This document shows positions 5,113-35,305 of a stretch of 35,537 nt of DNA, one piece after another. Positions within the stretch are counted from its first letter, which is position 1. Each line of letters opens with the position of its first letter. A program made the translations under genes and the position numbers. Location of the stretch: assembly GCA_017463155.1 (NCBI GenBank), contig JAFTPT010000002.1, positions 1 to 35,537 on the forward strand, read 5' to 3'. This DNA comes from Blautia sp. GTDB taxonomy: Bacteria > Bacillota > Clostridia > Lachnospirales > Lachnospiraceae. The notes under the pieces are model-generated. The model had not been told where the DNA came from, did not search any database, and was given only the letters and a program-made list of their open reading frames with translations.

Positions 5113-6078
5113 ATGAATAATAAAACAAAAAAGTTTGACATTCAGAAGTATTCCCTGATCATCATTCTGGTGGTCATGGTCGCGGTCTGCTCGATCCTTT
5201 CCAAGAGCTTCTTTACACCGACAAACCTTCTGAATATCCTGAAGCAGGTATCCGTCGTCACGATCTGTGCGTTTGCGCAGGGGATGATCATCATCATGGG
5301 CGATATCGATCTGTCACTCGGATATCTGGCCGGCATGGCCGGCACCTATGCATGTATCTTCTACATGCACATCAACAATCTGTTCGTAGCCTTCCTGCTC
5401 GGCCTCGTGCTCGGTGCAGCGGTAGGCGCGATCAACGGCCTGTTCGTCGCACACTTCAATCTGCCTGCCTTCATCGTAACGCTGGCCATGCAGCAGGTAT
5501 GTCTCGGCGCGATCTGCCTGTATACGGCAGGACAGAACGTTTACCAGATTGGCGCCTTCAAGGGCCTTGGCCAGGGCACGATCCTCGGGATCCCGGTCAC
5601 AGTCATCTTTATGGTCGTCATGCTGGTGATCACCCATGTGATGCTGACCTACACAAAATTCGGCCGGTACATGTACGCGGTCGGCGGCAACCGGGAGGCT
5701 GCCAATGCAGCCGGTGTTGAGGTTGAAAAGGTCCGCTGGGCTGCCTTCATCGTATCGGGTATGTTTGCGGCGGTAGCCGGTATGGTCCTGATGGGACGTC
5801 TGAACGCAGGTATCCCCACACAGGGACAGGGTTATGAGACCGACGCCATCACGGCTACGGTCATCGGCGGAACGAGCTTTTCGGGCGGTTCCGGTACGGC
5901 GCTGGGCACCCTGCTCGGCTCCATCATCATCGGTATCCTGAACAACATCATGACACTTCTGGGCGTGGACTCTTACCTGCAGATGATCATCAAGGGCGGT
6001 ATCATCATCCTGGCTGTCCTGGCAGACGTGGTGACCAAATCCGGAAAACGCAGCATCAAGATCATGGCATCCAAATAA
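5113..6078 (+). CDS. Ribose-type sugar ABC transporter permease (RbsC family)
   Basis: A 321-aa polytopic membrane protein of the BPD_transp_2 family with about eight to ten hydrophobic helices. It carries the family hallmarks GDIDLSLG (near residue 63), RYMYAVGGNREAA in the cytoplasmic EAA-like loop and the C-terminal GGTSFSGGSGTALGTLLG. GGAGG at 5100-5104 is eight bases before the ATG at 5113 and decides this start over a GTG at 5104. The gene follows the ATPase by 23 bp. It forms the homodimeric channel of the importer. Confidence 0.93.
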   Translation: MNNKTKKFDIQKYSLIIILVVMVAVCSILSKSFFTPTNLLNILKQVSVVTICAFAQGMIIIMGDIDLSLGYLAGMAGTYACIFYMHINNLFVAFLLGLVLGAAVGAINGLFVAHFNLPAFIVTLAMQQVCLGAICLYTAGQNVYQIGAFKGLGQGTILGIPVTVIFMVVMLVITHVMLTYTKFGRYMYAVGGNREAANAAGVEVEKVRWAAFIVSGMFAAVAGMVLMGRLNAGIPTQGQGYETDAITATVIGGTSFSGGSGTALGTLLGSIIIGILNNIMTLLGVDSYLQMIIKGGIIILAVLADVVTKSGKRSIKIMASK

Positions 6079-6142
6079 CCCAAAAAGGGCATCAACTTCT
6101 GGTGCAAGAAGTCTATATACAACAAAAAAGGAGGACCAATCA

Positions 6143-7123
6143 ATGAAGATGAAGAAAATGTTAAGCGTACTCGTATCCGCAGGCCTTGCAGTCGGAATGC
6201 TTACCGGCGCATGTGTGAACGCACAGGCTGAAGAAGGCGCCTATAAGGTTGCTTTCCTTCCGACCGATATGTCCGCCACCTTCGCATCCTGGCTGGCAGC
6301 AGAACTGGAAACCGCTTTTGCGTCCTATGATGATATGGAGCTGACGGTCATGGATTCCAAGAATGACCTGCAGACCCAGATCTCCAACATGGAGACCTGC
6401 GTATCCCAGGGCTATGACTACATCATCCTGCTTCCGCTGGAGCCGGCTGCAGAAGACGATCTGGTCGCACAGTACATTGAGGACGGCACTCCGATGATGA
6501 ACATCAACCTGGATGACCTTCAGGTCGAGAAAGCTTCCTCCGTTATCGCAAATCCCTATGACCTTGGAACGATCGTATCCGAGTATGCAAAGACCCTGAT
6601 TCCGGAAGATGCCAATGTCGTCGTCCTTCTTGGACCGTCCGGCAATACAGACTCCATCGAGCGTCGTCATGCGTATGAAGATGTCATTTTCACCCAGATG
6701 GAGGGCGTGACGATCCTTGACGAGCAGCTTGGCGACTGGGAAAAGGCAAAAGGCATGGAGCTGATGGAAAACTGGCTGCAGGTCTATGACGACATCGACG
6801 CTGTCTTCTCCATGAACGATGCGATGGCGATCGGCGCTTATGAGGCTGCCGCAGATGCCGGCAGAGCTGACGATATCATGTTCTTCGGCGTTGACGGTCT
6901 TGCAGACGCTGCAGTTGCGATCCGTGACGGCGAGATCGACGCAACCGCTCTTCAGGATGCACAGGTCATGGCACAGGAAGGTGCAAGGATCGTGCATGAA
7001 GTCCTGACCGGTGAGAATGCGGAAGGCTTCGAGAAGACCCAGATCGACGTTACCCTGATCACCCCGGACAACGTTGCCGAGTTCGTAGAGAGATATACCG
7101 CCAACGGAATGCTGAGCGAGTAA
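6143..7123 (+). CDS. Sugar-binding protein of the ABC transporter (Peripla_BP_4 type)
   Basis: A 326-aa exported binding protein. The signal peptide spans residues 1-29 and ends in NAQA before EE, a good signal peptidase I site. The only cysteine in the signal region is in LTGAC, which is not a canonical lipobox because position -3 is Thr. The mature part has the two-lobed ribose/galactose-binding fold, with DMELTVMDSKNDLQTQ, DYIILLPLEP and NDAMAIGAYEAA segments. A small hairpin (6095-6112) and AAAGGAGG precede the ATG. It completes the importer of the first operon. How the protein stays at a Gram-positive surface without a clear lipid anchor is unexplained. Confidence 0.92.
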   Translation: MKMKKMLSVLVSAGLAVGMLTGACVNAQAEEGAYKVAFLPTDMSATFASWLAAELETAFASYDDMELTVMDSKNDLQTQISNMETCVSQGYDYIILLPLEPAAEDDLVAQYIEDGTPMMNINLDDLQVEKASSVIANPYDLGTIVSEYAKTLIPEDANVVVLLGPSGNTDSIERRHAYEDVIFTQMEGVTILDEQLGDWEKAKGMELMENWLQVYDDIDAVFSMNDAMAIGAYEAAADAGRADDIMFFGVDGLADAAVAIRDGEIDATALQDAQVMAQEGARIVHEVLTGENAEGFEKTQIDVTLITPDNVAEFVERYTANGMLSE

Positions 7124-24436: not shown

Positions 24437-24465
24437 TTGACATCCATATTTTGTGGTGATAAAAT
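24437..24465 (+). promoter_or_regulatory. Sigma-A-type promoter of the transglutaminase-like surface locus
   Basis: TTGACA (24437-24442) and TAAAAT (24460-24465) with a 17-bp spacer. The predicted start lies about 130 nt before the first codon, leaving a long leader. No GAAACGTTTC site is present, so this locus is not part of the neighbouring sugar regulon. Confidence 0.82.
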
Positions 24466-24485
24466 AAACTTGATACCTATATGCA

Positions 24486-24590
24486 GTTTTTGATCCGCGT
24501 AAGATCATTTTTTACAAATCATTGTTTACAGGTTCAGATGGCGGCGGTCCATATTATGTGAAGGGGAGGGCCGGCGCCGGGGGTCACATA
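24486..24590 (+). promoter_or_regulatory. Structured 5' leader of the surface locus
   Basis: TGATC-CGCGTAA-GATCA followed by six T forms a short terminator-like hairpin near 24488-24510. A second hairpin pairs TATGTGA (24555-24561) with TCACATA (24584-24590) around a GC-rich loop containing CCGGCGCCGG. It ends one base before the AGGAGG ribosome site. It does not match a riboswitch class I know. Confidence 0.45.
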
Positions 24591-24605
24591 AGGAGGTAAG
24601 GGGAA

Positions 24606-26705
24606 TTGAAAAAAAGAATATGGATGCTGGCGGCACTGCTTTCTCTCAGTCTGACTGCCTCGGGCCTGACGAGTGTTTGGGGCGAAATGCTGTCGGACGG
24701 GACTGCTGCGGATGCGGTATTTGAGGGAGAGGACCAGGAGGCAGGTTCCGACGATGATTCCGCACAGGACGACGGGGATGACGATGAGGATACCGGTGAT
24801 ACGGGCGAAGGCCTGTCTTCGGATACGGACACGTCGGGAGAACTGCATCCTGAAGACGAAGAGGATACGGATGACATCACCGCAGACGAGGGCGGAGATG
24901 AATCCGGCGAAGATGAAGATGATCCGTCTGCAGGGGACGGGGATGACGATCCGGAGGAGGGCGAGGATCCGTCTGAAACGGATGAAGATGAAGAGCTTTC
25001 CTCTGAACCCGCGGAGGATGAGCAGATCGAGATCACCGAGAGACAGCTCTCCATGCAGACCGATCTTGCGACAGGGGATGTGACGGCTGTGCTGATCCGC
25101 TGTTATGGAAAGAACAGCGAAGGTGAACGTACGCTCGTCAGAACCTATATCTGGGACGTTGAGGATCACAGCTTCTGGACGATCACACCGGCAGAGCAGG
25201 AACTGCTCCCCGTAGAGGCGGGACTTCAGCAGCTGTACGGAGAGATCCGGTGGAATCTGTACAAGGATGCCGACGGATATACGGTTCCGTATGGGGACGG
25301 CTATGTGATCTCGGACAGCGGGGACGGGCTTCGGTGGGAGTACTATTATACCGCTGCCGATACAGAGGAGGGCCTTCCGGCCGGCGAGCTGACCGGCTAC
25401 AGCCAGGATGCGCCCGCAGCATTCTATATCGGAACACAGGCACCGCTTACCGGGCATGAAGGTCTTCAGATCATAGGAGAGGATACCTTTTATCTGGAGG
25501 CGGACGGGACGGTCTTTACGGGCGGGACCAAAAAGATCGAGGATCACGTCTACACCTTCGACGCAAAGGGCGTCTGCACCGACGTGTACCAGACCGGCTG
25601 GGTCAAGGAGAGCGGCAGCTGGTATTATTACAAGGATGACGGAAGTAAGATCACGAGTACGGGATTTACGACTCTTGATGGTAAAATATATTATCTGAGC
25701 AAAGGCAAGCGGCTGAAGGGATGGATTACCCGCAGCAAAATGCTTTATTATCTGGAGCCTGCGACCGGCGTTCTTCTGACCGGAAAGCAGCAGATCGACG
25801 GAAAGCTGTATATCCTGGATGAAAAGGACGGCCATCTCCTCTATGGCTGGCAGCAGATCGGGAACGATATGCATTATGCCAACAAGAAGGACGGCCACCT
25901 CGTCAAAGGATGGCAGAAGATTTCCGGCAAAAAGTATTTCTTCAACTCCAAGGGCATCCGCCGTAAGGGCATGATGACAGAGGGGACAAAGGTATACTGC
26001 TTCAAAACGGACGGAACGCTCCGCAACGGCTGGTATACCTATAAGGAGCAGAAGTACTACTTTGACTCGTCGACCGGTGTGGCCTACCGGAACCGCTGGG
26101 CGACGATCAGCAAGGGTAAATACTATTTCAACAGTGACAGTGTCATGTGTACCGGGGTCATAGAGGTCAAGGGCAAGACCTATGTCCTGAATTCCGCGGG
26201 CAAACTGATCAAGAACCGAAAGGTCTACAAGGTCAAAAACAATTACTACAAGATCTCCAAAAACGGGGTGGCGACCCTGCTGAGCCAGGCCGAAGGACTT
26301 GCAAGGACACAGATGCAGAAGAGCGGCTGGAGTCTTAATTCCGCGTTCACTTATGCCTCGGGACTTTCCTGGCAGGAGACGCCCAACCTTATCCTTGGAG
26401 ATGAAAAGGAACAGGAAGCGTACGCGGTCTACGGATTCCTGAACGGGAAGGGCAACAGCGAGGTCATGGCTGCCGTCTTCTACCAGATGGCCAGGGCGCT
26501 CGGCTATGATGCCTATTATGTGAAGGGATATGTGCCGACGGCCGGCGGCTACAGCCAGCAGCAGGCCTGGGTCGAGATCGTAAAGAGCGGCAAGACCTAC
26601 GTGTGCGACCCGTATTTTACAAAGATGACCGGGAAGAGTGGTTACATGTTCGCCTACAAGAAAAAAGGAACATGGAGATATAAGGACTATGCCCGTGTGA
26701 GCTGA
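24606..26705 (+). CDS. Secreted wall-repeat protein with inactive transglutaminase-like domain (A1)
   Basis: A 699-aa exported protein. Layout: signal peptide (1 to about 26); very acidic Asp/Glu/Ser/Gly linker (about 39-140); a domain I do not recognise (about 141-285); glucan/choline-binding-type wall repeats (about 285-555, GW...YYF pattern); and a C-terminal domain (560-699) aligning with the transglutaminase-like domain of the protein at 27702. The alignment puts S618 and Q653 where the paralogue has catalytic Cys304 and His339; only the Asp (D668) is kept. Both lost residues are one base change from Cys and His codons. The domain is therefore predicted to be catalytically dead and may bind, scaffold or regulate. 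The start is TTG at 24606, nine bases after AGGAGG. It opens a four-gene surface locus. Confidence 0.87.
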   Translation: MKKRIWMLAALLSLSLTASGLTSVWGEMLSDGTAADAVFEGEDQEAGSDDDSAQDDGDDDEDTGDTGEGLSSDTDTSGELHPEDEEDTDDITADEGGDESGEDEDDPSAGDGDDDPEEGEDPSETDEDEELSSEPAEDEQIEITERQLSMQTDLATGDVTAVLIRCYGKNSEGERTLVRTYIWDVEDHSFWTITPAEQELLPVEAGLQQLYGEIRWNLYKDADGYTVPYGDGYVISDSGDGLRWEYYYTAADTEEGLPAGELTGYSQDAPAAFYIGTQAPLTGHEGLQIIGEDTFYLEADGTVFTGGTKKIEDHVYTFDAKGVCTDVYQTGWVKESGSWYYYKDDGSKITSTGFTTLDGKIYYLSKGKRLKGWITRSKMLYYLEPATGVLLTGKQQIDGKLYILDEKDGHLLYGWQQIGNDMHYANKKDGHLVKGWQKISGKKYFFNSKGIRRKGMMTEGTKVYCFKTDGTLRNGWYTYKEQKYYFDSSTGVAYRNRWATISKGKYYFNSDSVMCTGVIEVKGKTYVLNSAGKLIKNRKVYKVKNNYYKISKNGVATLLSQAEGLARTQMQKSGWSLNSAFTYASGLSWQETPNLILGDEKEQEAYAVYGFLNGKGNSEVMAAVFYQMARALGYDAYYVKGYVPTAGGYSQQQAWVEIVKSGKTYVCDPYFTKMTGKSGYMFAYKKKGTWRYKDYARVS

Positions 26706-26743
26706 TACCGGCAGGGGCTCGTCTGCAGAAGAGAGGAATGGAT

Positions 26744-27688
26744 ATGAGCAAGAAAAAATGTACGTTGTTGATCGCCGCAATGGCGTTTTCCGTGACGATG
26801 CTGGCAGCCTGCCAGGGGGGCAATGAGACCCGGCAGAAGGCTTCCGAGGTAGCTGCGCCGGAAACACCCACACCGGAACCGACCAGTACGCCGATTCCGA
26901 CGCCGGAACCGACCAGTACGCCCACGCCAGTACCGCTGAAGACCATCGGCGTCAAGGCGGAGGGGACCTATGAGATCCGGCTCAAAAACACAACGGGCAA
27001 GGTGATCAAAGGCTTTGCGATCAAGGAAAGAGACGCGGAGGCTTTCAGCAGCAATCTGCTGGAGAACGGGGATAAGATCGAAAACAACGAACAGAGGCTG
27101 TTCTATTACAAGCCCGAGAACGGAAAGATCTATGATATCCAGATCACCTTCGAGGATGATAAGCTCCATGTGCTTCATGATTTCCCGTTCGCGGACATGA
27201 AGGCCGGCGACATCTGCCTGGAGGGAGAGGTCGTTTATCTCTCCTACACGAATCCGGCCAATGCCCCGGTGAGCACCAAGGCGGCCGAGATGATGGCGCA
27301 GAATGTGGCGACGCCGACTCCCGCTCCGGAGGTGACCGTGACACCGGTCCCGGAGGTACAGCAGCAGGAGAACACGCCCCAGTACAACCAGGACGAGAAC
27401 TACAACTATAACAACAATACCAACAATAATACCAACAACAATACGAATAATAATACAAATAATAACACAAACAATAACACAAACAATAATACAAACACCA
27501 ACACAGACACTGATACCAACACGGATACGGATACCGGTACAGACACCAATACGGATACCGATACAGAGCAGCCGATCATCAACGATACGGACACAGACAC
27601 CGGTGATCCCGTGATCGAGGAGGGAAGCTACGACGACGGAAGCGGCGTCGAAGAGGGCTCCAGTGATGACGAACTGTTGACCTATTAA
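26744..27688 (+). CDS. Lipoprotein with Asn/Thr-Asp/Thr repeat tail (B1)
   Basis: A 314-aa lipoprotein. The lipobox is L20-A21-A22-C23 after a basic-hydrophobic signal. A Pro/Thr/Glu-rich spacer (about 40-64) leads to a compact domain of about 110 residues (KTIGVKAEGTYEIRLKN ... FPFADM ... YLSYTN). The same domain occurs in the protein at 28886. The C-terminal third is low complexity: a QQQENTPQYNQDEN segment, seven NNNT units, then NT/DT alternation and an acidic end. I chose the ATG at 26744, seven bases after GAGAGG; one at 26738 is too close. It lies directly behind A1. Function unknown; the spacer and tail suggest a membrane-anchored protein spanning the wall. Confidence 0.86.
   Translation: MSKKKCTLLIAAMAFSVTMLAACQGGNETRQKASEVAAPETPTPEPTSTPIPTPEPTSTPTPVPLKTIGVKAEGTYEIRLKNTTGKVIKGFAIKERDAEAFSSNLLENGDKIENNEQRLFYYKPENGKIYDIQITFEDDKLHVLHDFPFADMKAGDICLEGEVVYLSYTNPANAPVSTKAAEMMAQNVATPTPAPEVTVTPVPEVQQQENTPQYNQDENYNYNNNTNNNTNNNTNNNTNNNTNNNTNNNTNTNTDTDTNTDTDTGTDTNTDTDTEQPIINDTDTDTGDPVIEEGSYDDGSGVEEGSSDDELLTY
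27409..27600 (+). repeat. Low-complexity repeat coding for NNNT and NT/DT units
   Basis: Seven consecutive NNNT units are followed by alternating NT and DT. Codons vary between copies (AAC/AAT, ACC/ACG/ACA), so the repeat is kept at protein level and is not a pure DNA microsatellite. Confidence 0.85.
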
Positions 27689-27701
27689 GAGAGGCGGCCA
27701 C

Positions 27702-28856
27702 ATGAGAAAGAACAAAACAGTATTTTTACTGCTTGCTTTGTTTGTCCTGCTTGCCGGAGCTTTCTGCGTGACCGCGCATGCGGCCGATACGCCCGGTACC
27801 TGGAAGACCATCAAAGGAAAAAGGTACTTTGTTGATGAGAAGGGAAACAAGGTCAAGGGATGGATCACCTGGAAGAACGGCCGGTATTATACTAGCAAGA
27901 GCACAGGTGTGATGCTCACGGGCAAGCAGACCATCAGCAAGAAGCTGTACTACTTTAATCCGAAGGGCAGCTATATCGGAAAAGCCTACACAGGATGGAG
28001 AAATATCAAGAGCAAACGCTATTACTTCAGCCCGGAGGACCTGGCGGCGGCCAGGGGCTGGGAGACGATCGGGAATAAGAAATACTATTTTGATGCGGAC
28101 TTCAGCATGCATAAGGGCTGGCGTTCCTACCAGAAAAAATGGTATTACTTTGACAAGACCACAGGAGAGAACCTGACCGGCTGGATCAAGGTCGGCGGCA
28201 AGACCTGGTACTGTGATCCTGCGAATGGATACCGCCTGACCGGCTGGCAGACGATCGGTGGAAAGAAGTATTACTTCAATTCCTCCGGCGTTATGCAAAA
28301 AGGGATTGTCAAAATATCCGGAAAGCGCTATTATTTTGAAAGTGACGGCTCTCTCGTCATAAACAAGAGCTCCTATTCGATCAACGGGATCGCGTACAAG
28401 GTCGGTACGGACGGCGTCCTTTCCTATTCGAGCGATGCCTATGCGCTGGCAGCGGCCCGTCTGGACAAGGTCGGCTGGAACCTGAAGAAAGCCTTTAAAT
28501 GGTCGGCGCATCATATCCGCTACCGGTTTGTCGGTTCGTCCGGAGCACCCTCCGGGGCAAAGATGGCCGAGTATTATGCGAAGATCGGCTTCAGCAGATT
28601 GTCGGGGGACTGCAACGTCATGGCGGCAACATTCTACTATATGGCCAAGCTGCTGGGCTACAAGGCGTATTTTATGCGGGGAAGTGTCCCGCTGGCCAGA
28701 GGAGGCTGGGGTCCCCACGCCTGGGTCGAGGTCGTGAAGAACGGCCGGACCTATCTCTGCGACCCGGATTACGAATATGACGATGGCAGAAACGGCTACA
28801 TGATCACTTACAGTTCCGGAGGCTGGAGCTATGCCAACAGGAGACGGATCTGTTAG
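27702..28856 (+). CDS. Secreted wall-repeat transglutaminase-like protein, intact triad (A2)
   Basis: A 384-aa exported protein. The signal peptide ends at AHA (residue 27). Residues about 33-245 hold roughly nine wall-binding repeats of the GW...KYYF type. The C-terminal domain (about 246-384) is a transglutaminase-core fold with the full triad: C304 in SGDCNVMAATFYYMA, H339 in GPHAWVEV and D354 in YLCDPD. In bacteria this fold includes protein cross-linkers, peptidases and peptidoglycan-acting enzymes. GAGAGGCGG precedes the ATG, 13 bp after B1. It is a shorter paralogue of A1 without the acidic linker. The wall repeats place the enzyme on the cell surface; its substrate is unknown. Confidence 0.88.
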   Translation: MRKNKTVFLLLALFVLLAGAFCVTAHAADTPGTWKTIKGKRYFVDEKGNKVKGWITWKNGRYYTSKSTGVMLTGKQTISKKLYYFNPKGSYIGKAYTGWRNIKSKRYYFSPEDLAAARGWETIGNKKYYFDADFSMHKGWRSYQKKWYYFDKTTGENLTGWIKVGGKTWYCDPANGYRLTGWQTIGGKKYYFNSSGVMQKGIVKISGKRYYFESDGSLVINKSSYSINGIAYKVGTDGVLSYSSDAYALAAARLDKVGWNLKKAFKWSAHHIRYRFVGSSGAPSGAKMAEYYAKIGFSRLSGDCNVMAATFYYMAKLLGYKAYFMRGSVPLARGGWGPHAWVEVVKNGRTYLCDPDYEYDDGRNGYMITYSSGGWSYANRRRIC

Positions 28857-28885
28857 AGATATACATACAAGAGGAGGAACACAAG

Positions 28886-29668
28886 ATGAAAAAAACATGG
28901 ATCGCAGCCCTGATCCTCGGCGCAGCCCTGGCGATGGGAACAACGGCTTTTGCCGAAGAGGCAGCGCTGAAGACGATCGGTACAGAAGCCGAAGGTGCTT
29001 ATAAGGTACAGATCAAGAACGGCACCGGACGTGAGCTCAGTGGTTTTGAACTGCGTAAGATCGGCACACAGGAATTTGACAAAAAGCTCATGGCCGACGG
29101 CGATGTGATCGCACCGGATGAGGAGGTCATCCTCTACTTTACACCGGATGCGGATGCCGCTGCGGCAGCGCAGACGGAAGAGACGGCTGAAGCGGAAGGC
29201 CCCAAGGCTCCGACACCTCTCTACGACGCCCGCGTGACCTTCAAGGATGACAACAGCACGGCCGAGATCCCGAACTTCCCGTTCGAGGATATGGAAGGCT
29301 GTGAGATCAAGTATGAAGACGGTCTTGTGTTCATTGCATACAAGAGTCTGACCACAGGCGAGGAGCTTGACACCAAGGAAGAGGCCAGAGCCCTGATCGA
29401 GGCTGTCCTTGCCGCTATGAAGGCGGCCGAGGAGGCAGCAGCGGCACCGGCACAGTCCGGCGGATCTTCTTCCGGCGGCGGAGACTATTCCTACAGTGAG
29501 GATTATTCCTACAGTGACAGCGGAAGCAGCAGCGGTGGCGGCGGAAGCTCCTATTCCGAACCGGCCTACGAGGAGCCGGCTTATGAGGAACCGGCTTACG
29601 AAGAACCCAGCGGCGGCGGTGACTCCGGCGGAGATCCCGGATGCCTGGACGAAGGTCTGGTTTTCTAA
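28886..29668 (+). CDS. Secreted protein with B-domain and Tyr/Glu/Pro-Ser/Gly tail (B2)
   Basis: A 260-aa exported protein. The signal peptide ends in AFA before EE (residue 23), and there is no lipobox. The first part matches the B1 domain: LKTIGTEAEGAYKVQIKNGT, then FPFEDMEGCEIKYEDGLVFIAY, with an Ala/Glu-rich insertion between them. The tail is Ser/Gly/Tyr-rich and has tandem EPAYE/EPAYEEP units and a late Cys (GCLDEGLVF). Synonymous codons differ between tail units. AGAGGAGG precedes the ATG. It follows A2 as B1 follows A1, giving an A-B-A-B layout. Function unknown; soluble export, in contrast to lipid-anchored B1, suggests the pair divides membrane and wall locations. Confidence 0.85.
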   Translation: MKKTWIAALILGAALAMGTTAFAEEAALKTIGTEAEGAYKVQIKNGTGRELSGFELRKIGTQEFDKKLMADGDVIAPDEEVILYFTPDADAAAAAQTEETAEAEGPKAPTPLYDARVTFKDDNSTAEIPNFPFEDMEGCEIKYEDGLVFIAYKSLTTGEELDTKEEARALIEAVLAAMKAAEEAAAAPAQSGGSSSGGGDYSYSEDYSYSDSGSSSGGGGSSYSEPAYEEPAYEEPAYEEPSGGGDSGGDPGCLDEGLVF

Positions 29669-29686: not shown

Positions 29687-29726
29687 GGCCAGGACATCTG
29701 CCCGCGCAGATGTCCTGACCTTGTTT
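29687..29726 (+). terminator. Terminator-like hairpin before the MBOAT gene
   Basis: AGGACATCTGC (29691-29701) and GCAGATGTCCT (29706-29716) form a perfect stem, extended outward by C-G, a mismatch and two G-C pairs, with loop CCGC. CCTTGTTT follows. It may partly terminate transcription between the surface module and the acylation genes. Confidence 0.65.
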
Positions 29727-29748: not shown

Positions 29749-31260
29749 ATGTCACTGGTTTCCAATACATTTATTCTGTTCGTGGCAGCCACGATCCTGG
29801 TCTATTACCTGGTTCCGGGTAAACTGCAGTGGATCGTACTGCTGGTTTTTTCATATCTGTACTATATAGCAGGGGGCGTTCAGTACCTGCTTTTCCTTTT
29901 GTTTTCCACAGCCGTTACCTATGGCGGAGCGCTTCTGATCAGCCGGCTGCGGGCGGACGGAAAGGAAAAGACCGCCAAAAGGATCCTGCTGCTGGCACTT
30001 CTTCTGAATCTGGGAATGCTTGGCGTTCTCAAGTATTCGGATTTCGTGATCGAAAATATCAATGCGGTGCTTCACCTGGGATGGAAGGAATTTCGTTTTC
30101 TCCTTCCGCTGGGGATCTCGTTCTACACCTTCCAGTCGACAGGCTATCTGCTCGACGTATGGTGGAAGAGGACGGAGCCGGAACGGAATCCCGGCAAGTA
30201 TGCGCTGTTTGTTTCGTTTTTCCCGCAGCTGCTGCAGGGCCCGATCGGCAAATTCAGCCGCCTGGAACCACAGCTCTGTACGCCGCATAAGCCCACAGGC
30301 CGGAACCTGTGCAGAGGCTTCGAGCGGATCCTGTGGGGCTATTTCAAAAAGATGATCATCGCCGACTGGGCGGTGGTCTTTGTGGACGCGGTCTTCGACG
30401 ATCCCGGCAAGCTCAGCGGGATCTCGATCTTTGCCGTGATCATGTACTCTATCCAGCTGTACGCGGATTTCTCCGGCGGCATCGACGTCGTCATCGGGAT
30501 CGCCGAGATGATGGGCATCACGCTGGATGAGAACTTCACCCAGCCGTATCTGGCCACATCTCTGGCGGATTTCTGGCACAGATGGCATATCTCCCTTGGA
30601 AACTGGATGAAGGATTATGTTTTTTATCCGCTTTCCCTCTCCAGGTGGATGGGAAAATTCGGTAAATGGGCCAAGCAGACCTTCGGCAAGAAGACCGGCC
30701 GGGGCCTTCCGATCTGCATTTCCAATATCCTGGTTTTCCTGGTGGTCGGCATCTGGCACGGCGCGGCCTGGAAATATGTGGTTTACGGCCTGTACAACGG
30801 TATCATCATCGGTGTCAGCGGCATGCTGGCCGGCGCGTACCGGAGCTGGAAAAAAGCGCTTCACATCAACAGCAAGGCGGCCTGGTATCATGTGTTCATG
30901 GTGCTGCGCACCCTGGTGATCGTCAATATCTACCGGTTCTTTGACCGGGCAGACACGGTGCGGGGAGCCTGGACGCTCCTTGTGGACAGCTTTACCCACT
31001 GGAACCCGTCGCTGATCATGACGATCCCGGCGGGAAGGGGCGGTACGGCGTTCACGCCCTACGCACTTCTGATCATTGCCTGCGGATGCATCGTTTTGTT
31101 CATCGTCAGCATCCTCAAGGAAAAAGGCTGGGATATCCGCGAGCGGATCGCGGCACTGCCGCTGCCGGTGAGCGCGGCCATCTATTTCTGCCTGTTACTG
31201 TCAATCGGTTTATTTGGCTCCACGGCCGCAGCAAGAGGGTTTATCTATGCACAATTTTAA
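29749..31260 (+). CDS. MBOAT-family membrane O-acyltransferase (DltB/AlgI-like)
   Basis: A 503-aa polytopic membrane protein. MBOAT landmarks are LPLGISFYTFQSTGYLLDVWW (119-139, seen as adjoining motifs), LLQGPIGKFSR (161-171), DFWHRWHISLGNWMKDY (274-290) and GIWHGAAWKY (334-343), where H337 is the likely catalytic His. It would transfer an acyl group across the membrane to a wall polymer. ACAGGAG precedes the ATG. The next genes encode an SGNH-like protein and an acyl carrier protein, the same trio as DltB, DltD and DltC, so D-alanine or another acyl group is the probable cargo. AlgI-type polysaccharide acetylation is the main alternative. Confidence 0.9.
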   Translation: MSLVSNTFILFVAATILVYYLVPGKLQWIVLLVFSYLYYIAGGVQYLLFLLFSTAVTYGGALLISRLRADGKEKTAKRILLLALLLNLGMLGVLKYSDFVIENINAVLHLGWKEFRFLLPLGISFYTFQSTGYLLDVWWKRTEPERNPGKYALFVSFFPQLLQGPIGKFSRLEPQLCTPHKPTGRNLCRGFERILWGYFKKMIIADWAVVFVDAVFDDPGKLSGISIFAVIMYSIQLYADFSGGIDVVIGIAEMMGITLDENFTQPYLATSLADFWHRWHISLGNWMKDYVFYPLSLSRWMGKFGKWAKQTFGKKTGRGLPICISNILVFLVVGIWHGAAWKYVVYGLYNGIIIGVSGMLAGAYRSWKKALHINSKAAWYHVFMVLRTLVIVNIYRFFDRADTVRGAWTLLVDSFTHWNPSLIMTIPAGRGGTAFTPYALLIIACGCIVLFIVSILKEKGWDIRERIAALPLPVSAAIYFCLLLSIGLFGSTAAARGFIYAQF

Positions 31261-32245
31261 ACGGTTCGCAAAGATCGTCCTGGTGCTGCTGGTGTGCGTT
31301 CTGCTCCTTCGCGGGCTCGATCTGGCACTTTATCCCTGCACATTCATGCGGAATGACGTGCACGCGATCACGACAGAGCACTTTGACGAGCTGATCGTGG
31401 GGACCTCCCACGGAAAAATGAATATCGTTCCCGACGTTCTGGAACAGACCACCGGCCTGAAAGGCCATAATGTCTGTGTCGGAAGCGAATATCCGGTCGA
31501 CGTCTATCACCTGCTCATGCTGGCCTGTGAAAAGCAGCAGGCACCGAAGCGGGTGATCTACGAGATTTCCCCGGGTTATTTTGTCCAGGAAAAAGAAGAG
31601 GGAAACAACTACCTTCTTTTCTACCATGAGTTTCCGCTGTCAAAGGCGAAGCTCTCGTATTTTAAGACTTCCATCGCGAAATGCAACTTCCGGACGGTCC
31701 TGTTTCCCTGGTACGAGTATTCGCTCAGCTATGAACTCGGGCGGGCAGGGAAGACCCTGTCACAGAAGCTGGGCGGCGACTATGACGTCGCCAGCCTGAA
31801 GAGCGAGACCCAGGAATACCATGAGGACGGCTGGATCCAGCGTAACGCGGTCCACACCGAGAATCTCGATCCGGAAAAAGGGTTTGCGGAGGTGCGGGAG
31901 TTTGCCACGGAGAATGTGATCGCATCCAACATGGAGTATCTGCAAAAGACGATCCGTTTCTGCAAGGACAACGGCATCGAGTTTGTGGCGGTGACGACAC
32001 CCGTCCCGCAGCCCACGCTTCTCAACTTTGAGAGCAGCTATCGGGAGGCCTGGGGTTACTTTGATGAATTCTTTGCGGAGGAGGGCGTACCCTACGTGAA
32101 TTTCAATGCACAGTACTACAACGCCTTCCCTCACAAGATTCAATATTTTACAGACTACGACGGCCATATGAATGGCAAAGCAGCACAGGATTTTTCGGCC
32201 GTACTGGCGGACATCCTGACAAACTATCTGAACAAAGGAGAATGA
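31247..32245 (+). CDS. Membrane-anchored SGNH-like protein (DltD-like)
   Basis: A 332-aa protein with one N-terminal membrane anchor (about 8-29) and an extracytoplasmic domain. The nucleophile block is ELIVGTSHGKMN, with S54; near the C-terminus DYDGHMNGKAA has the Asp/His expected of the SGNH triad. The middle segments (VIYEISPGYF, PVPQPTLLNF) fit DltD/DUF1574-type proteins. The ATG at 31247 lies inside the end of the MBOAT gene (14-nt overlap), after AGAGGG, which indicates translational coupling. DltD acts with DltB in the last steps of teichoic-acid D-alanylation. A similar role on a wall or lipid-linked polymer is inferred. Confidence 0.82.
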   Translation: MHNFKRFAKIVLVLLVCVLLLRGLDLALYPCTFMRNDVHAITTEHFDELIVGTSHGKMNIVPDVLEQTTGLKGHNVCVGSEYPVDVYHLLMLACEKQQAPKRVIYEISPGYFVQEKEEGNNYLLFYHEFPLSKAKLSYFKTSIAKCNFRTVLFPWYEYSLSYELGRAGKTLSQKLGGDYDVASLKSETQEYHEDGWIQRNAVHTENLDPEKGFAEVREFATENVIASNMEYLQKTIRFCKDNGIEFVAVTTPVPQPTLLNFESSYREAWGYFDEFFAEEGVPYVNFNAQYYNAFPHKIQYFTDYDGHMNGKAAQDFSAVLADILTNYLNKGE

Positions 32246-32247
32246 AC

Positions 32248-32472
32248 ATGGAAGAATTACTTGAGATCCTCGAAGAGATCCAGCCGGACGCGGATTACGA
32301 GACATGCACGACCCTGATCGATGACAACATTCTGGATTCCTTTGCGATCCTGTCCATCATCAGCGAACTGCAGGAGACCTTTGATATCAGCATCACGCCC
32401 GCCGATATCATTCCGGAGAATTTCAACTCCGCACAGGCACTGTGGGATATGGTGCAGAGGCTGAAGAACTGA
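32248..32472 (+). CDS. Acyl carrier protein (DltC-like)
   Basis: A 74-aa acidic carrier protein. The phosphopantetheine site is the serine S31 in DDNILDSFAILSIISEL, with DSF replacing the DSL of fatty-acid ACP. This resembles DltC-type and polyketide-type carriers. I chose the ATG at 32248, seven bases after AAAGGAG; an ATG at 32242 overlaps the ribosome site. It overlaps the end region of the SGNH gene and ends in a strong terminator. It probably carries the acyl group for the MBOAT protein; no AMP-forming ligase that would charge it is in this window. Confidence 0.88.
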   Translation: MEELLEILEEIQPDADYETCTTLIDDNILDSFAILSIISELQETFDISITPADIIPENFNSAQALWDMVQRLKN

Positions 32473-32516
32473 GAATAAGCGTGCTCTGTATGTCCGGGAG
32501 AACGGAGCGTTGCGGT

Positions 32517-32546
32517 GCGGCTGCTGATTGCAGCCGCGTTTTTTTT
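32517..32546 (+). terminator. Rho-independent terminator after the acyl carrier protein gene
   Basis: GCGGCTGC (32517-32524) and GCAGCCGC (32530-32537) form a perfect 8-bp stem with loop TGATT, followed by G and eight T. It closes the acylation operon. Confidence 0.93.
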
Positions 32547-32614
32547 ATGTTACTATAATAAAAGAAACGATATCCAGGACAACGCATTGCACCGGCAGGA
32601 GAAAGAACGTTCTG

Positions 32615-33805
32615 ATGATGGAAAAAACACTGAAACAGGAGATCCATACCGAGTTGACCGATCACATCATTCCCTTCTGGGATGCGCTTCGGGATGAGGA
32701 GCATGGCGGTTTTTATGGAAGAGTGAATCATGACCTCACGATCGACCATCATGCGGACAAGGGCGGCGTTTTGCATAGCAGGATCCTGTGGTTCTTTTCG
32801 GAGGCCGGACGGGTGCTGCAGGACGAGCAGTGTCTCATGAACGCCCGGCATGCCTTCCGTTTTCTGAAGGAGCATCTGCTCGACGGCGAATACGGCGGGG
32901 TCATGTGGACGACGGACTACCGGGGGGAACCGGCCGACGCCTCCAAGCATGCCTACTGCCAGGCCTTTGCGATCTATGGCCTGTCGGCCTGGTACAGGGT
33001 CTCCGGCGAACAGGACGCCCTCACGACCGCGATGCGCCTGTTTGAACTGCTCGAGACCCGGATGCGTGATCCGGAGGGGTACGGCGAGGCCTTTGAGCGG
33101 GACTTTTCGCCCCAGGTGAATGACAAGCTTTCGGAGAACGGTGTGCTGGCGGACCGGACCATGAACACGCTCCTACATGTGATCGAGGCGTACACGGAAC
33201 TTCTGCGCGTATCCGGAGATGACCGGGTCCGGACAAAGCTTACGGAAGCAGTCAGGATTATGATGGACCGGGTCTTCGACCCGGCCAAAGGACGTCTGGA
33301 AGTGTTTTTTGACAAGGATTATCACTCCCTGATCGATCTTTACTCCTACGGCCATGATATCGAAGCCGCGTGGCTTCTGGACCGGGCAGCAGAGGTGCTC
33401 GGGGATCCGGTGCTGACGGAAAAGGTACATGTTATGACGGCCGTCCTGGAGGATCATGTCCTGCGGGAAGGCTTTGACGGGGAAGCTCTCACGGCAGAGT
33501 GTGAAGAGGGACGCGTGCTGGCGGACCGGATCTGGTGGGTCCAGGCGGAGGCTGTGAACGGATTCCTGCATGCATGGAAGAAGCGCCCGGAGAGAACGGA
33601 CTTTCTGGACGCCGCCCGCCGTGAGTGGCAGTATATCAGAGAGCACGTGATCGACAGAAGGCCGGACAGCGAGTGGCTGGAGCAGCTTGACAAAGCCGGC
33701 CGCCCGGATGGCAGTAAGCCGATGGCCGGACTCTGGAAATGCCCCTACCACAACGGCCGCATGTGCCTCGAGTTTCTTTTGTTTCCCTTTGAAACAGGAA
33801 GATAA
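32615..33805 (+). CDS. Cellobiose 2-epimerase-like (AGE family) enzyme
   Basis: A 396-aa (alpha/alpha)6-barrel protein. It matches ruminococcal cellobiose 2-epimerase closely: ELTDHIIPFW, HSRILWFFSEAGR, KHAYCQAFAIYGLSAWYR, TMNTLLHVIEAYTELL, SYGHDIEAAWLLDRA and the C-terminal WKCPYHNGRMC that contains the catalytic His. The family epimerises the reducing glucose of cellobiose (or mannobiose) to mannose, in beta-glucan or mannan use. I chose ATG 32615; a second ATG follows directly. Length and N-terminus (MMEKTLKQEI) agree with the ruminococcal enzyme. A TATAAT at 32554-32559 may be its -10 element. No mannan or cellobiose gene is adjacent. Confidence 0.87.
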   Translation: MMEKTLKQEIHTELTDHIIPFWDALRDEEHGGFYGRVNHDLTIDHHADKGGVLHSRILWFFSEAGRVLQDEQCLMNARHAFRFLKEHLLDGEYGGVMWTTDYRGEPADASKHAYCQAFAIYGLSAWYRVSGEQDALTTAMRLFELLETRMRDPEGYGEAFERDFSPQVNDKLSENGVLADRTMNTLLHVIEAYTELLRVSGDDRVRTKLTEAVRIMMDRVFDPAKGRLEVFFDKDYHSLIDLYSYGHDIEAAWLLDRAAEVLGDPVLTEKVHVMTAVLEDHVLREGFDGEALTAECEEGRVLADRIWWVQAEAVNGFLHAWKKRPERTDFLDAARREWQYIREHVIDRRPDSEWLEQLDKAGRPDGSKPMAGLWKCPYHNGRMCLEFLLFPFETGR

Positions 33806-33808
33806 GCC

Positions 33809-33837
33809 TTTACTTTACCGCTACGATATATTAAAAT
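33809..33837 (+). promoter_or_regulatory. Candidate promoter of the rhamnulokinase gene
   Basis: TTTACT (33809-33814) and TAAAAT (33832-33837) are 17 bp apart in a very AT-rich stretch. A second -10-like TATAAT is at 33844-33849 without a clear -35. Moderate support only. Confidence 0.45.
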
Positions 33838-33901
33838 TATAGATATAATTTGTGTGCTTTTTAAAGAAACATAGAATACACAGAAACAGGAGGTTTTGTA
33901 C

Positions 33902-35305
33902 ATGGCAACCTATTATCTGGCAGTAGACATCGGAGCATCCAGCGGTCGTCTGATCCTCGGCCATCTTGAGGAAGGAAAAATGATTCTCGAGGAAGTGTAC
34001 CGTTTTGAAAACGGCATGGTCAAGAAGGACGGCGAGCTCTGCTGGGAATTTGACCGGCTCTTCAAGGAGATCGTGGCAGGACTCAAGAAGTGTAAGGAGA
34101 TCGGCAAGGTTCCGGTGAGCATGGGCGTGGACACCTGGGGCGTCGACTTTGTGCTGCTCGACAAGGATGAGAAGGTACTCGGCAATACCGTCGGCTACAG
34201 GGATCACAGAACGGACGGGATCGAGGAAGAGGTCTACAAGATCATTCCGAAGGAAGAGCTCTATGCTCGTACGGGTATCCAGTTCGCCATCTTCAATACC
34301 ATCTACCAGCTGATGGCGGTCAAGAAACAGCATCCGGAATATCTGGAACAGGCGGAGACGCTTCTGCAGGTACCGGATTATTTCCATTATCTGCTGACCG
34401 GCGAAAAGACCAACGAATATACCGAGGCAACGACGGGCAACATGGTCGACCCGAAGACCAGAGACTGGGATTACGAGCTGATCGAGCGCATGGGCTACCC
34501 GACAAAGATCTTCAGCAAGCTGATCATGCCGGGCACCAGCATCGGCCATCTTCGTCCGGAGCTTCGTGACGAGATCGGCTTTGATCTGGAGGTTGTTGCT
34601 CCGTGTACACATGATACAGGCTCTGCCGTTCTCGCGGTTCCCGCGAACGATGATGACTTTATCTACATCAGCTCCGGAACCTGGTCCCTGATGGGCCTTG
34701 AACGGAAGGACGCGGACTGCTCCGAGAAGAGCTGTGAGCTTAACCTGACCAACGAAGGCGGCTACAACGGGACGATCCGCTACCTCAAGAACATCATGGG
34801 ACTCTGGATGATCCAGTCTGTCCGCCATGAGACGGGCGACGCCTACAGCTTCAGTGAGATCGTCGACCTGGCGGAGGAGGCCAAGGACTTCCCGTCGAGA
34901 GTCGATGCCAACGCGGACTGCTTCCTTTCCCCGGACAATATGACGGAGGAGGTCAAGGATTACTGCCGCAGGACCGGCCAGCCGGTACCCGAGACCATGG
35001 GCGAGCTCTCGACCGTAATCTACACGAGCCTGGCCGAGTGCTATGCAAGGACGGCCAAGGAGCTGGAGGAGATGACCGGCAGGACCTACAGCCGTATCCA
35101 CATCGTTGGCGGCGGTTCCAACGCGGGGTACCTCAACGAACTGACGGCCAGGGCGACCGGCAAGGAGATCCATGCAGGCCCGGGCGAGGCGACCGCGATC
35201 GGAAACATCACGGCCCAGATGCTGAAGACCGGCGAGTTTTCTTCCGTCGAGGAAGCCAGGAACGTGATCCACGAATCCTTTGATATCAAGATCTACAAAG
35301 CGTAA
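33902..35305 (+). CDS. rhaB: Rhamnulokinase (FGGY family)
   Basis: A 467-aa FGGY kinase matching RhaB. Landmarks are LAVDIGASSGRLILGHL (N-terminal ATPase), GVDTWGVDFVLLD, YRDHRT, the APCTHDTGSAVLAVP block with the catalytic Asp, YISSGTWSLMG, NEGGYNGTIRYLKNIMGLWM and IHIVGGGSNAGYLN. RhaB phosphorylates L-rhamnulose at C1; some relatives use L-fuculose. AGGAGG is eight bases before the ATG at 33902, which beats a TTG at 33896. No rhamnose isomerase or aldolase is in the window; the rest of the pathway may lie beyond the intron downstream. The FucU-like mutarotase at 9155 could act on the same deoxysugar. Confidence 0.92.
   Translation: MATYYLAVDIGASSGRLILGHLEEGKMILEEVYRFENGMVKKDGELCWEFDRLFKEIVAGLKKCKEIGKVPVSMGVDTWGVDFVLLDKDEKVLGNTVGYRDHRTDGIEEEVYKIIPKEELYARTGIQFAIFNTIYQLMAVKKQHPEYLEQAETLLQVPDYFHYLLTGEKTNEYTEATTGNMVDPKTRDWDYELIERMGYPTKIFSKLIMPGTSIGHLRPELRDEIGFDLEVVAPCTHDTGSAVLAVPANDDDFIYISSGTWSLMGLERKDADCSEKSCELNLTNEGGYNGTIRYLKNIMGLWMIQSVRHETGDAYSFSEIVDLAEEAKDFPSRVDANADCFLSPDNMTEEVKDYCRRTGQPVPETMGELSTVIYTSLAECYARTAKELEEMTGRTYSRIHIVGGGSNAGYLNELTARATGKEIHAGPGEATAIGNITAQMLKTGEFSSVEEARNVIHESFDIKIYKA

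Follow-up and report, generated by a model that had tools for sequence, protein, structure and literature searches.

Sortases are surface cysteine enzymes that read the C-terminal tag of LPXTG proteins, and LapG and the pseudomurein endoisopeptidases PeiW and PeiP are hydrolases that act on other substrates and are not known to involve a cysteine tag. We know of no partner of Streptococcus pyogenes TglA that carries a cysteine tail. In the MBOAT-SGNH systems of envelope acylation (Dlt and PatAB), the C-terminal F[IL]YxxF (FXYXXF) of the MBOAT protein is described as an acyl shuttle motif (PMC12148441). In the present study, we analysed a 35,537-nucleotide stretch of DNA from Blautia sp. (contig JAFTPT010000002.1 of assembly GCA_017463155.1; this whole stretch is called the window), in which four adjacent exported open reading frames (ORFs) lie on one strand in the order A1-B1-A2-B2 and are followed by Dlt-like acylation genes. 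The A proteins carry a transglutaminase-like (TG) domain, and the B proteins share a domain of their own. We found that B proteins beside an intact TG end, after a low-complexity arm, in a C-terminal cysteine tag, which is new here, and that the tail cysteine of B and the catalytic cysteine of A are kept or lost together. No description of the TG-B pair was found among the matches listed in the open-licence literature of PubMed Central (titles and abstract starts), which is weak evidence of absence.

The locus resembled the Dlt and PatAB systems in the FIYAQF end of its MBOAT, next to which a putative SGNH-like protein is encoded, and the B tail resembled their acyl-shuttle peptide as a flexible C-terminal peptide with one presumably reactive residue. 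Unlike that peptide, the B tag has a cysteine instead of a tyrosine motif, is located on a separate exported protein, and follows the state of a TG-fold enzyme. A role of the B tail as a DltX-type shuttle was ruled out, because the tags carry cysteine and no FXYXXF tyrosine hexapeptide. The tails, read directly, also differed from sortase substrates, with no LPXTG and no membrane helix and basic tail after the tag, and the fold is another one. The identity to TglA (Protein Data Bank 9crn) was only 15%. For AlgF, the adaptor of alginate O-acetylation, the comparison with the B domain gave a Z within the range of common arrangements.

The alternation of four exported proteins had been described in an earlier sequence-only reading and was confirmed here as same-strand ORFs. 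Both A proteins matched Transglut_core (PF01841, cut-off 23 bits), with 28.9 bits for A1 and 23.3 bits, barely above the cut-off, for A2, and both carried tandem Choline_bind_3 repeats (Pfam, cut-off 27) with 92.3 and 136.8 bits, respectively, which are predicted to bind choline. The two proteins were 38% identical across A2 residues 34-383 (E 3e-63), in agreement with the shared wall repeats and C-terminal TG-like domain named in that reading. In the alignment, the catalytic triad positions were Cys-His-Asp in A2 and Ser-Gln-Asp in A1, so the claim of one intact and one dead enzyme held. This specialisation is old and recurs in three other loci (L044, L045, and L214), in each of which a dead A stands beside an untagged B. 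B1 and B2 matched each other in genome searches (E 5e-10) and were 34% identical in the domain alignment, as expected from the shared domain that had been claimed; this beta-sandwich domain matched no family in Pfam or NCBIfam. The two partners were likewise correctly distinguished as lipid-anchored and soluble, since B1 has a lipobox (..MLAAC) and B2 a plain signal peptide (..TTAFAEE).

The co-variation of the two cysteines was analysed in 168 B ORFs, consisting of 142 (none removed by score) and a further 26. A complete B protein was scored as tagged when a cysteine lay 8 to 11 residues from its C terminus; six B proteins cut by contig ends (four with an intact partner, one with a dead partner, and one without a TG) were set aside. 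The partner was the nearest upstream TG, else the nearest downstream, within 6.5 kb on the same strand, and was classed by the presence or absence of the catalytic cysteine. The results indicated that the tag was present in 33/36 complete B proteins with an intact partner (18/18 in Blautia and 15/18 elsewhere) and in 0/6 with a dead partner (window B1, L044 B1, both L045 B1 and B2, L200, and L214), which gave a Fisher p of 1.6e-5 for rows that are related by descent. With no TG nearby, the tag was found in 4/94 proteins of the first set and 0/26 of the second (4/120 together), and 33 of the 37 tagged B proteins stood near a TG. Among the loci of tagged B proteins without a TG, L050 and L058 start at a contig end, and L056 has a TG that was matched by another profile but fell below the cut-off used here. 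The sole TG found in genome G033 is dead, and both of its TG-adjacent B proteins lack the cysteine; the sole TG found in genome G366 at the cut-off used was the dead TG of L200. As background, 56 of 4888 ORFs of at least 100 residues in all frames ended in a loosely similar pattern, and none of the 56 was a B hit.

The tag terminates a tail of 35 to 149 residues (median 82), and five residue types account for 55 to 96% of this tail. By a simple pattern, a lipobox was present in 13/15 tagged B proteins with an intact TG outside Blautia and in 2/18 within it; thus most tagged B proteins of other genera are membrane lipoproteins, unlike the secreted B2. Two unusual proteins were also observed. 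A single B protein in L058 (92-1225) has five tandem C-terminal cysteine tags (CLEGGVIV and alike), and an SH3_3 protein with a shortened B-like part in L218 (8135-9052), which was missed by the B profile, carries the tag GCLTGGLLN and adjoins a TG and an MBOAT.

A tree of B proteins was built with 47 rows, in 42 of which both states were known. On this tree, the catalytic cysteine changed 3 times, each time as an independent loss, and the tag changed 6 times; in independent pairs, the tag was concordant in a mean of 2.8/3 and never opposite. For six untagged B proteins near acylation or TG genes (L200, L214, L213, L143, L160, and L128), a dead TG or a broken tail was predicted beforehand. At the catalytic position, L200 had Ala and L214 had Asn; L128 and L160 had an intact TG and odd tails, and L213 had no TG within 6.5 kb. 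The prediction failed for L143, where the TG is intact and the tail looks sound. In L128:8713-9684 and L160:9284-9868, the tail composition shifts abruptly beside the intact TGs, perhaps through frame shifts that are either real or made by assembly.

The genes downstream of B2 pointed to acylation. The window MBOAT matched Pfam with 65.2 bits (cut-off 27) and the NCBIfam DltB model below its cut-off, and its best named match was in Blautia sp. MSJ-9 (66%). Homologues of the DltD-like protein recurred beside MBOAT in other loci, and no match to the AMP ligase of relatives was found within 6.5 kb at the window, where the genes of 29749-35305 include the MBOAT, the DltD-like protein, and the carrier. 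Of the complete MBOAT-like ORFs in the fetched loci, 37/39 ended in F[IL]YxxF. Tagged B proteins lay within 6.5 kb of an MBOAT or AT3 gene in 34/37 cases, 29 with MBOAT and five with AT3 only (L044, L135, L137, L144, and L161); neither was found in that range for L191, L192, and L202, and L191 and L202 are on short contigs. The tag as a property of MBOAT was ruled out by these five and three cases. A common order outside Blautia was TG, MBOAT ending in FIYFRF, AlgX/DHHW-type SGNH protein, and B; elsewhere, the order was TG, B, and MBOAT, or a TG was combined with a B and an AT3 gene. In the Blautia locus L047, the order was TG, B, MBOAT, DltD-like protein, AMP ligase, decarboxylase-like pyridoxal-phosphate enzyme, and carrier. 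L044 (5856-13351) has A1-B1-A2-B2 as in the window and then an AT3 gene (5856-6989, E 1e-59) in the place of the MBOAT, indicating that the pair stays while the type of acyltransferase changes. In a set chosen by MBOAT instead, which took the best 80 among 111 loci and included some truncated at contig ends, a TG was found in 8 loci, a B in 8, and both in 7, and all 7 B proteins were tagged. In the locus with a TG alone, the match was weak and antisense, and in the locus with a B alone, it was weak (E 1e-4). By their equal lengths, four of the 7 were contigs already included above, a fifth had the tail of L052, and two were new (L261 and L262).

The TG proteins of other genera carried differing modules. 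In ten that were scanned, we found ChW in two, GBS_Bsp-like modules in four (two of these also with SLH), and choline-binding repeats, DUF4214, and DUF5648 in one each; in the last, a weak Kelch match was all that was found outside the TG region. These unrelated surface or wall modules suggested that the enzyme is held at the surface by differing means while the tag of its partner is constant. Elsewhere in the genome of the window, three more wall-repeat TG-like genes are clustered (L041:3702-6331, contig C51), one with an intact triad, and no B gene was found within 6.5 kb on the same strand of that intact gene.

From the observed genes, domains, residues, tag, co-variation, and neighbourhoods, we infer that A2 and B2 would form an enzyme-partner pair at the cell surface. 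The choline-binding repeats of A2 would anchor it in the wall, and B2 would present its cysteine tag on a flexible arm. The tag would enter the A2 active site, so that its cysteine could join the catalytic one in a single acyl-transfer or thiol-exchange reaction, and the B tail would serve the neighbouring MBOAT/SGNH or AT3 genes of surface-polymer acylation. A1/B1 would be a derived pair in which both cysteines are gone and whose action is probably limited to binding. That the cysteines are kept together and lost together is most simply read as a meeting of the two, and use as a substrate or carrier fits best because of the tandem tags and the acylation neighbours. We therefore consider it reasonably probable, judging from sequence comparison, that the A enzyme uses the B tail as a substrate or acyl carrier for surface-polymer acylation and that A1/B1 is a non-catalytic binding pair. 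The dead pairs have kept their tail ends (HSDVVEQ and HSDIVEQ in L044 and L045, and DELLTY in the window), which suggests that docking may still be used in them. A more specific scheme, in which B acts as an extracellular acyl carrier whose tag cysteine takes a thioester-linked acyl group from MBOAT/SGNH or AT3 and passes it to the TG-fold cysteine and then to a wall target, seems unlikely in exactly this form.

Several observations weigh against the proposed role of the B tail. Three independent events are the whole of the phylogenetic evidence, with a sign test p of 0.25, and three events cannot reach significance. Three B proteins beside an intact TG are untagged, namely those of L143 (cysteine 24 residues from the end), L128, and L160, and the tagged B protein of L135 has an AT3 neighbour and no TG within 6.5 kb. 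Among the strong Blautia TGs (E up to 1e-25; hand count), 26/35 have a B within 7 kb and 9/35 do not; one of these nine adjoins the tagged SH3 protein of L218. In addition, 73 of the 80 MBOAT loci are without the TG-B pair, so acylation does not need the pair.

The small number of events also bears on whether contact between A and B is needed at all, because failing clusters could lose both cysteines by shared decay. L045 would fit such decay, as it lacks an A2 gene and a B2 tag alike. However, the dead A1 proteins, encoded by five long open genes in five genomes, form a supported clade (97/89), which implies that they are maintained, and the tag is absent from 116/120 complete B proteins without a TG nearby and present in 33/36 with an intact one; we regard shared decay as an improbable cause of the joint loss. 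The joint loss, together with the tail ends retained in the dead pairs, would also be accounted for by a redox latch or pseudosubstrate: a mixed disulfide between the tag and catalytic cysteines would hold the enzyme inactive until it meets a reductant or ligand. Five tandem tags in L058 and tails of up to 149 residues suit a substrate or carrier better, and a latch appears very unlikely. A further alternative is a covalent tether: the TG enzyme would attach the tail of B to some component of the wall, or cut it free of one, and a lipid-anchored B would link the membrane to the wall, much as Braun lipoprotein does through a different class of enzyme. Against this, 16/18 tagged Blautia B proteins with an intact partner lack a lipobox by the simple pattern, the tag has no conserved Gln or Lys, and the recurrent MBOAT and AT3 neighbours are left unaccounted for, so that we consider a tether rather unlikely.

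The sequence-only reading had further proposed that the module arose by direct tandem duplication of an A-B unit, and this was not supported. In the TG tree, dead A1 falls in the supported (starred) clade of five with L044, L045, L059, and L214, which lies within a starred set of 20 without A2; a recent tandem duplication was rejected. The clade of five genomes indicated that the dead lineage predates the split of these genomes and was kept. In the B tree, window B1 falls together with L214 and the B1 proteins of L044 and L045 (83/90, with an open fork below); this group also holds L215, which has an intact TG of its own and a B truncated at a contig end. This tree favoured neither direct duplication nor another origin of the two pairs.

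The B domain itself is much more widely distributed than the pair. It was matched in 63/63 genomes of the genus Blautia, in 22/299 genomes (21/298 genera) of the family sample, in 36/294 of the order sample, and in 3/398 of the phylum sample, own genome included. Only 47/168 B ORFs were near a TG (47/142 in the first set and 0/26 in the second) and 121/168 were away; many loci had flanks shorter than 6.5 kb, where TG positions were checked by hand and none was nearby. The B domain as a TG-specific family was thus ruled out, with 95/142 and 26/26 away from a TG. Accordingly, the neighbour count named as a check in the sequence-only reading gave a split outcome: the association with A held for the tagged subfamily (33/37 near a TG) and not for B proteins overall, which are mostly away from A. 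The suggestion that B proteins are substrates or ligands of A gained an argument beyond that reading, namely that the tail cysteine follows the catalytic cysteine (33/36 versus 0/6). Neither the tail tag nor the Dlt-like genes downstream had been named there.

The usual contexts of TG-free B in Blautia were beside glpK/uppP and beside pyrH. The B-domain lipoprotein beside pyrH recurs across Blautia and other genera (L062, L067, L125, L127, L131, L132, L206, L207, L211, many of L223-L254, and L335-L359); it has a conserved C-terminal end (e.g., ..FTVSTTVDENGNEIVAGVW), unlike the tag, and may be a core envelope lipoprotein. The second TG-free B lipoprotein, beside glpK and uppP in Blautia (L041, L060, L061, L063-L066, and others), has an Asp/Tyr/Ser-rich tail that ends in, for example, IPWDYE or VWDENGNW.

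The features of the module, which sits on contig C54 of the draft genome, are listed in Table 1. The hairpin between B2 and the MBOAT gene is near-perfect, with 12 pairs, and the 80-nt stretch has a minimum free energy of -30.4 kcal/mol (z -4.87). It may set the ratio of the TG-B pair to the acylation genes. A terminator-like match was observed there on both strands.

Table 1. Coordinates of the module and neighbouring features, numbered in the window
Feature	Position	Strand	Basis
Promoter-like site TTGACA-17-TAAAAT, bases TG before second hexamer	24437..24465	+	consensus match only, 11/12, sigma-70-like
A1: acidic N-terminal region, choline-binding repeats, transglutaminase-like domain with other residues in place of catalytic Cys and His (alternative start 24624)	24606..26705	+	Pfam, catalytic columns
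A1 codon at catalytic Cys position, Ser	26457..26459	+	sequence, alignment
A1 codon at catalytic His position, Gln	26562..26564	+	sequence, alignment
B1: lipoprotein, B domain 26939-27280, Asn/Thr/Asp-rich tail without cysteine	26744..27688	+	sequence, alignment
B1 C-terminal SDDELLTY at the place of the tag, without Cys	27662..27685	+	sequence
A2: choline-binding repeats and transglutaminase-like domain, Cys-His-Asp	27702..28856	+	Pfam, alignment, model
A2 catalytic codons Cys, His, Asp	28611..28613, 28716-28718, 28761-28763	+	sequence, alignment
B2: secreted, B domain 28970-29380, low-complexity arm, C-terminal cysteine tag	28886..29668	+	sequence, alignment
B2 C-terminal tag GCLDEGLVF, Cys codon 29642-29644	29639..29665	+	sequence
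Strong hairpin, terminator- or attenuator-like, between B2 and MBOAT gene	29690..29717	+	folding
MBOAT, DltB-like, ends FIYAQF (31240-31257), fitting FXYXXF acyl-shuttle motif	29749..31260	+	Pfam, NCBIfam
DltD-like SGNH-type protein	31247..32245	+	weak Pfam match DltD, 14.1 bits, below cut-off 22.7
Acyl-carrier-like protein, 74 aa	32248..32472	+	homologue L047:3337-3561 matches PP-binding

Collectively, an unnamed protein family of gut Lachnospiraceae and their relatives gains a testable role, with one nine-residue peptide and one enzyme as the items to be tested and the dead pair A1/B1 as a natural control. If the proposed role is true, at least some surface transglutaminase-like enzymes have dedicated cysteine-tagged partners, and polymer acylation in such bacteria may have an extra extracellular step. 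If B is indeed an acyl carrier, it would form part of an extracellular relay based on cysteine, a counterpart of the known tyrosine shuttle.
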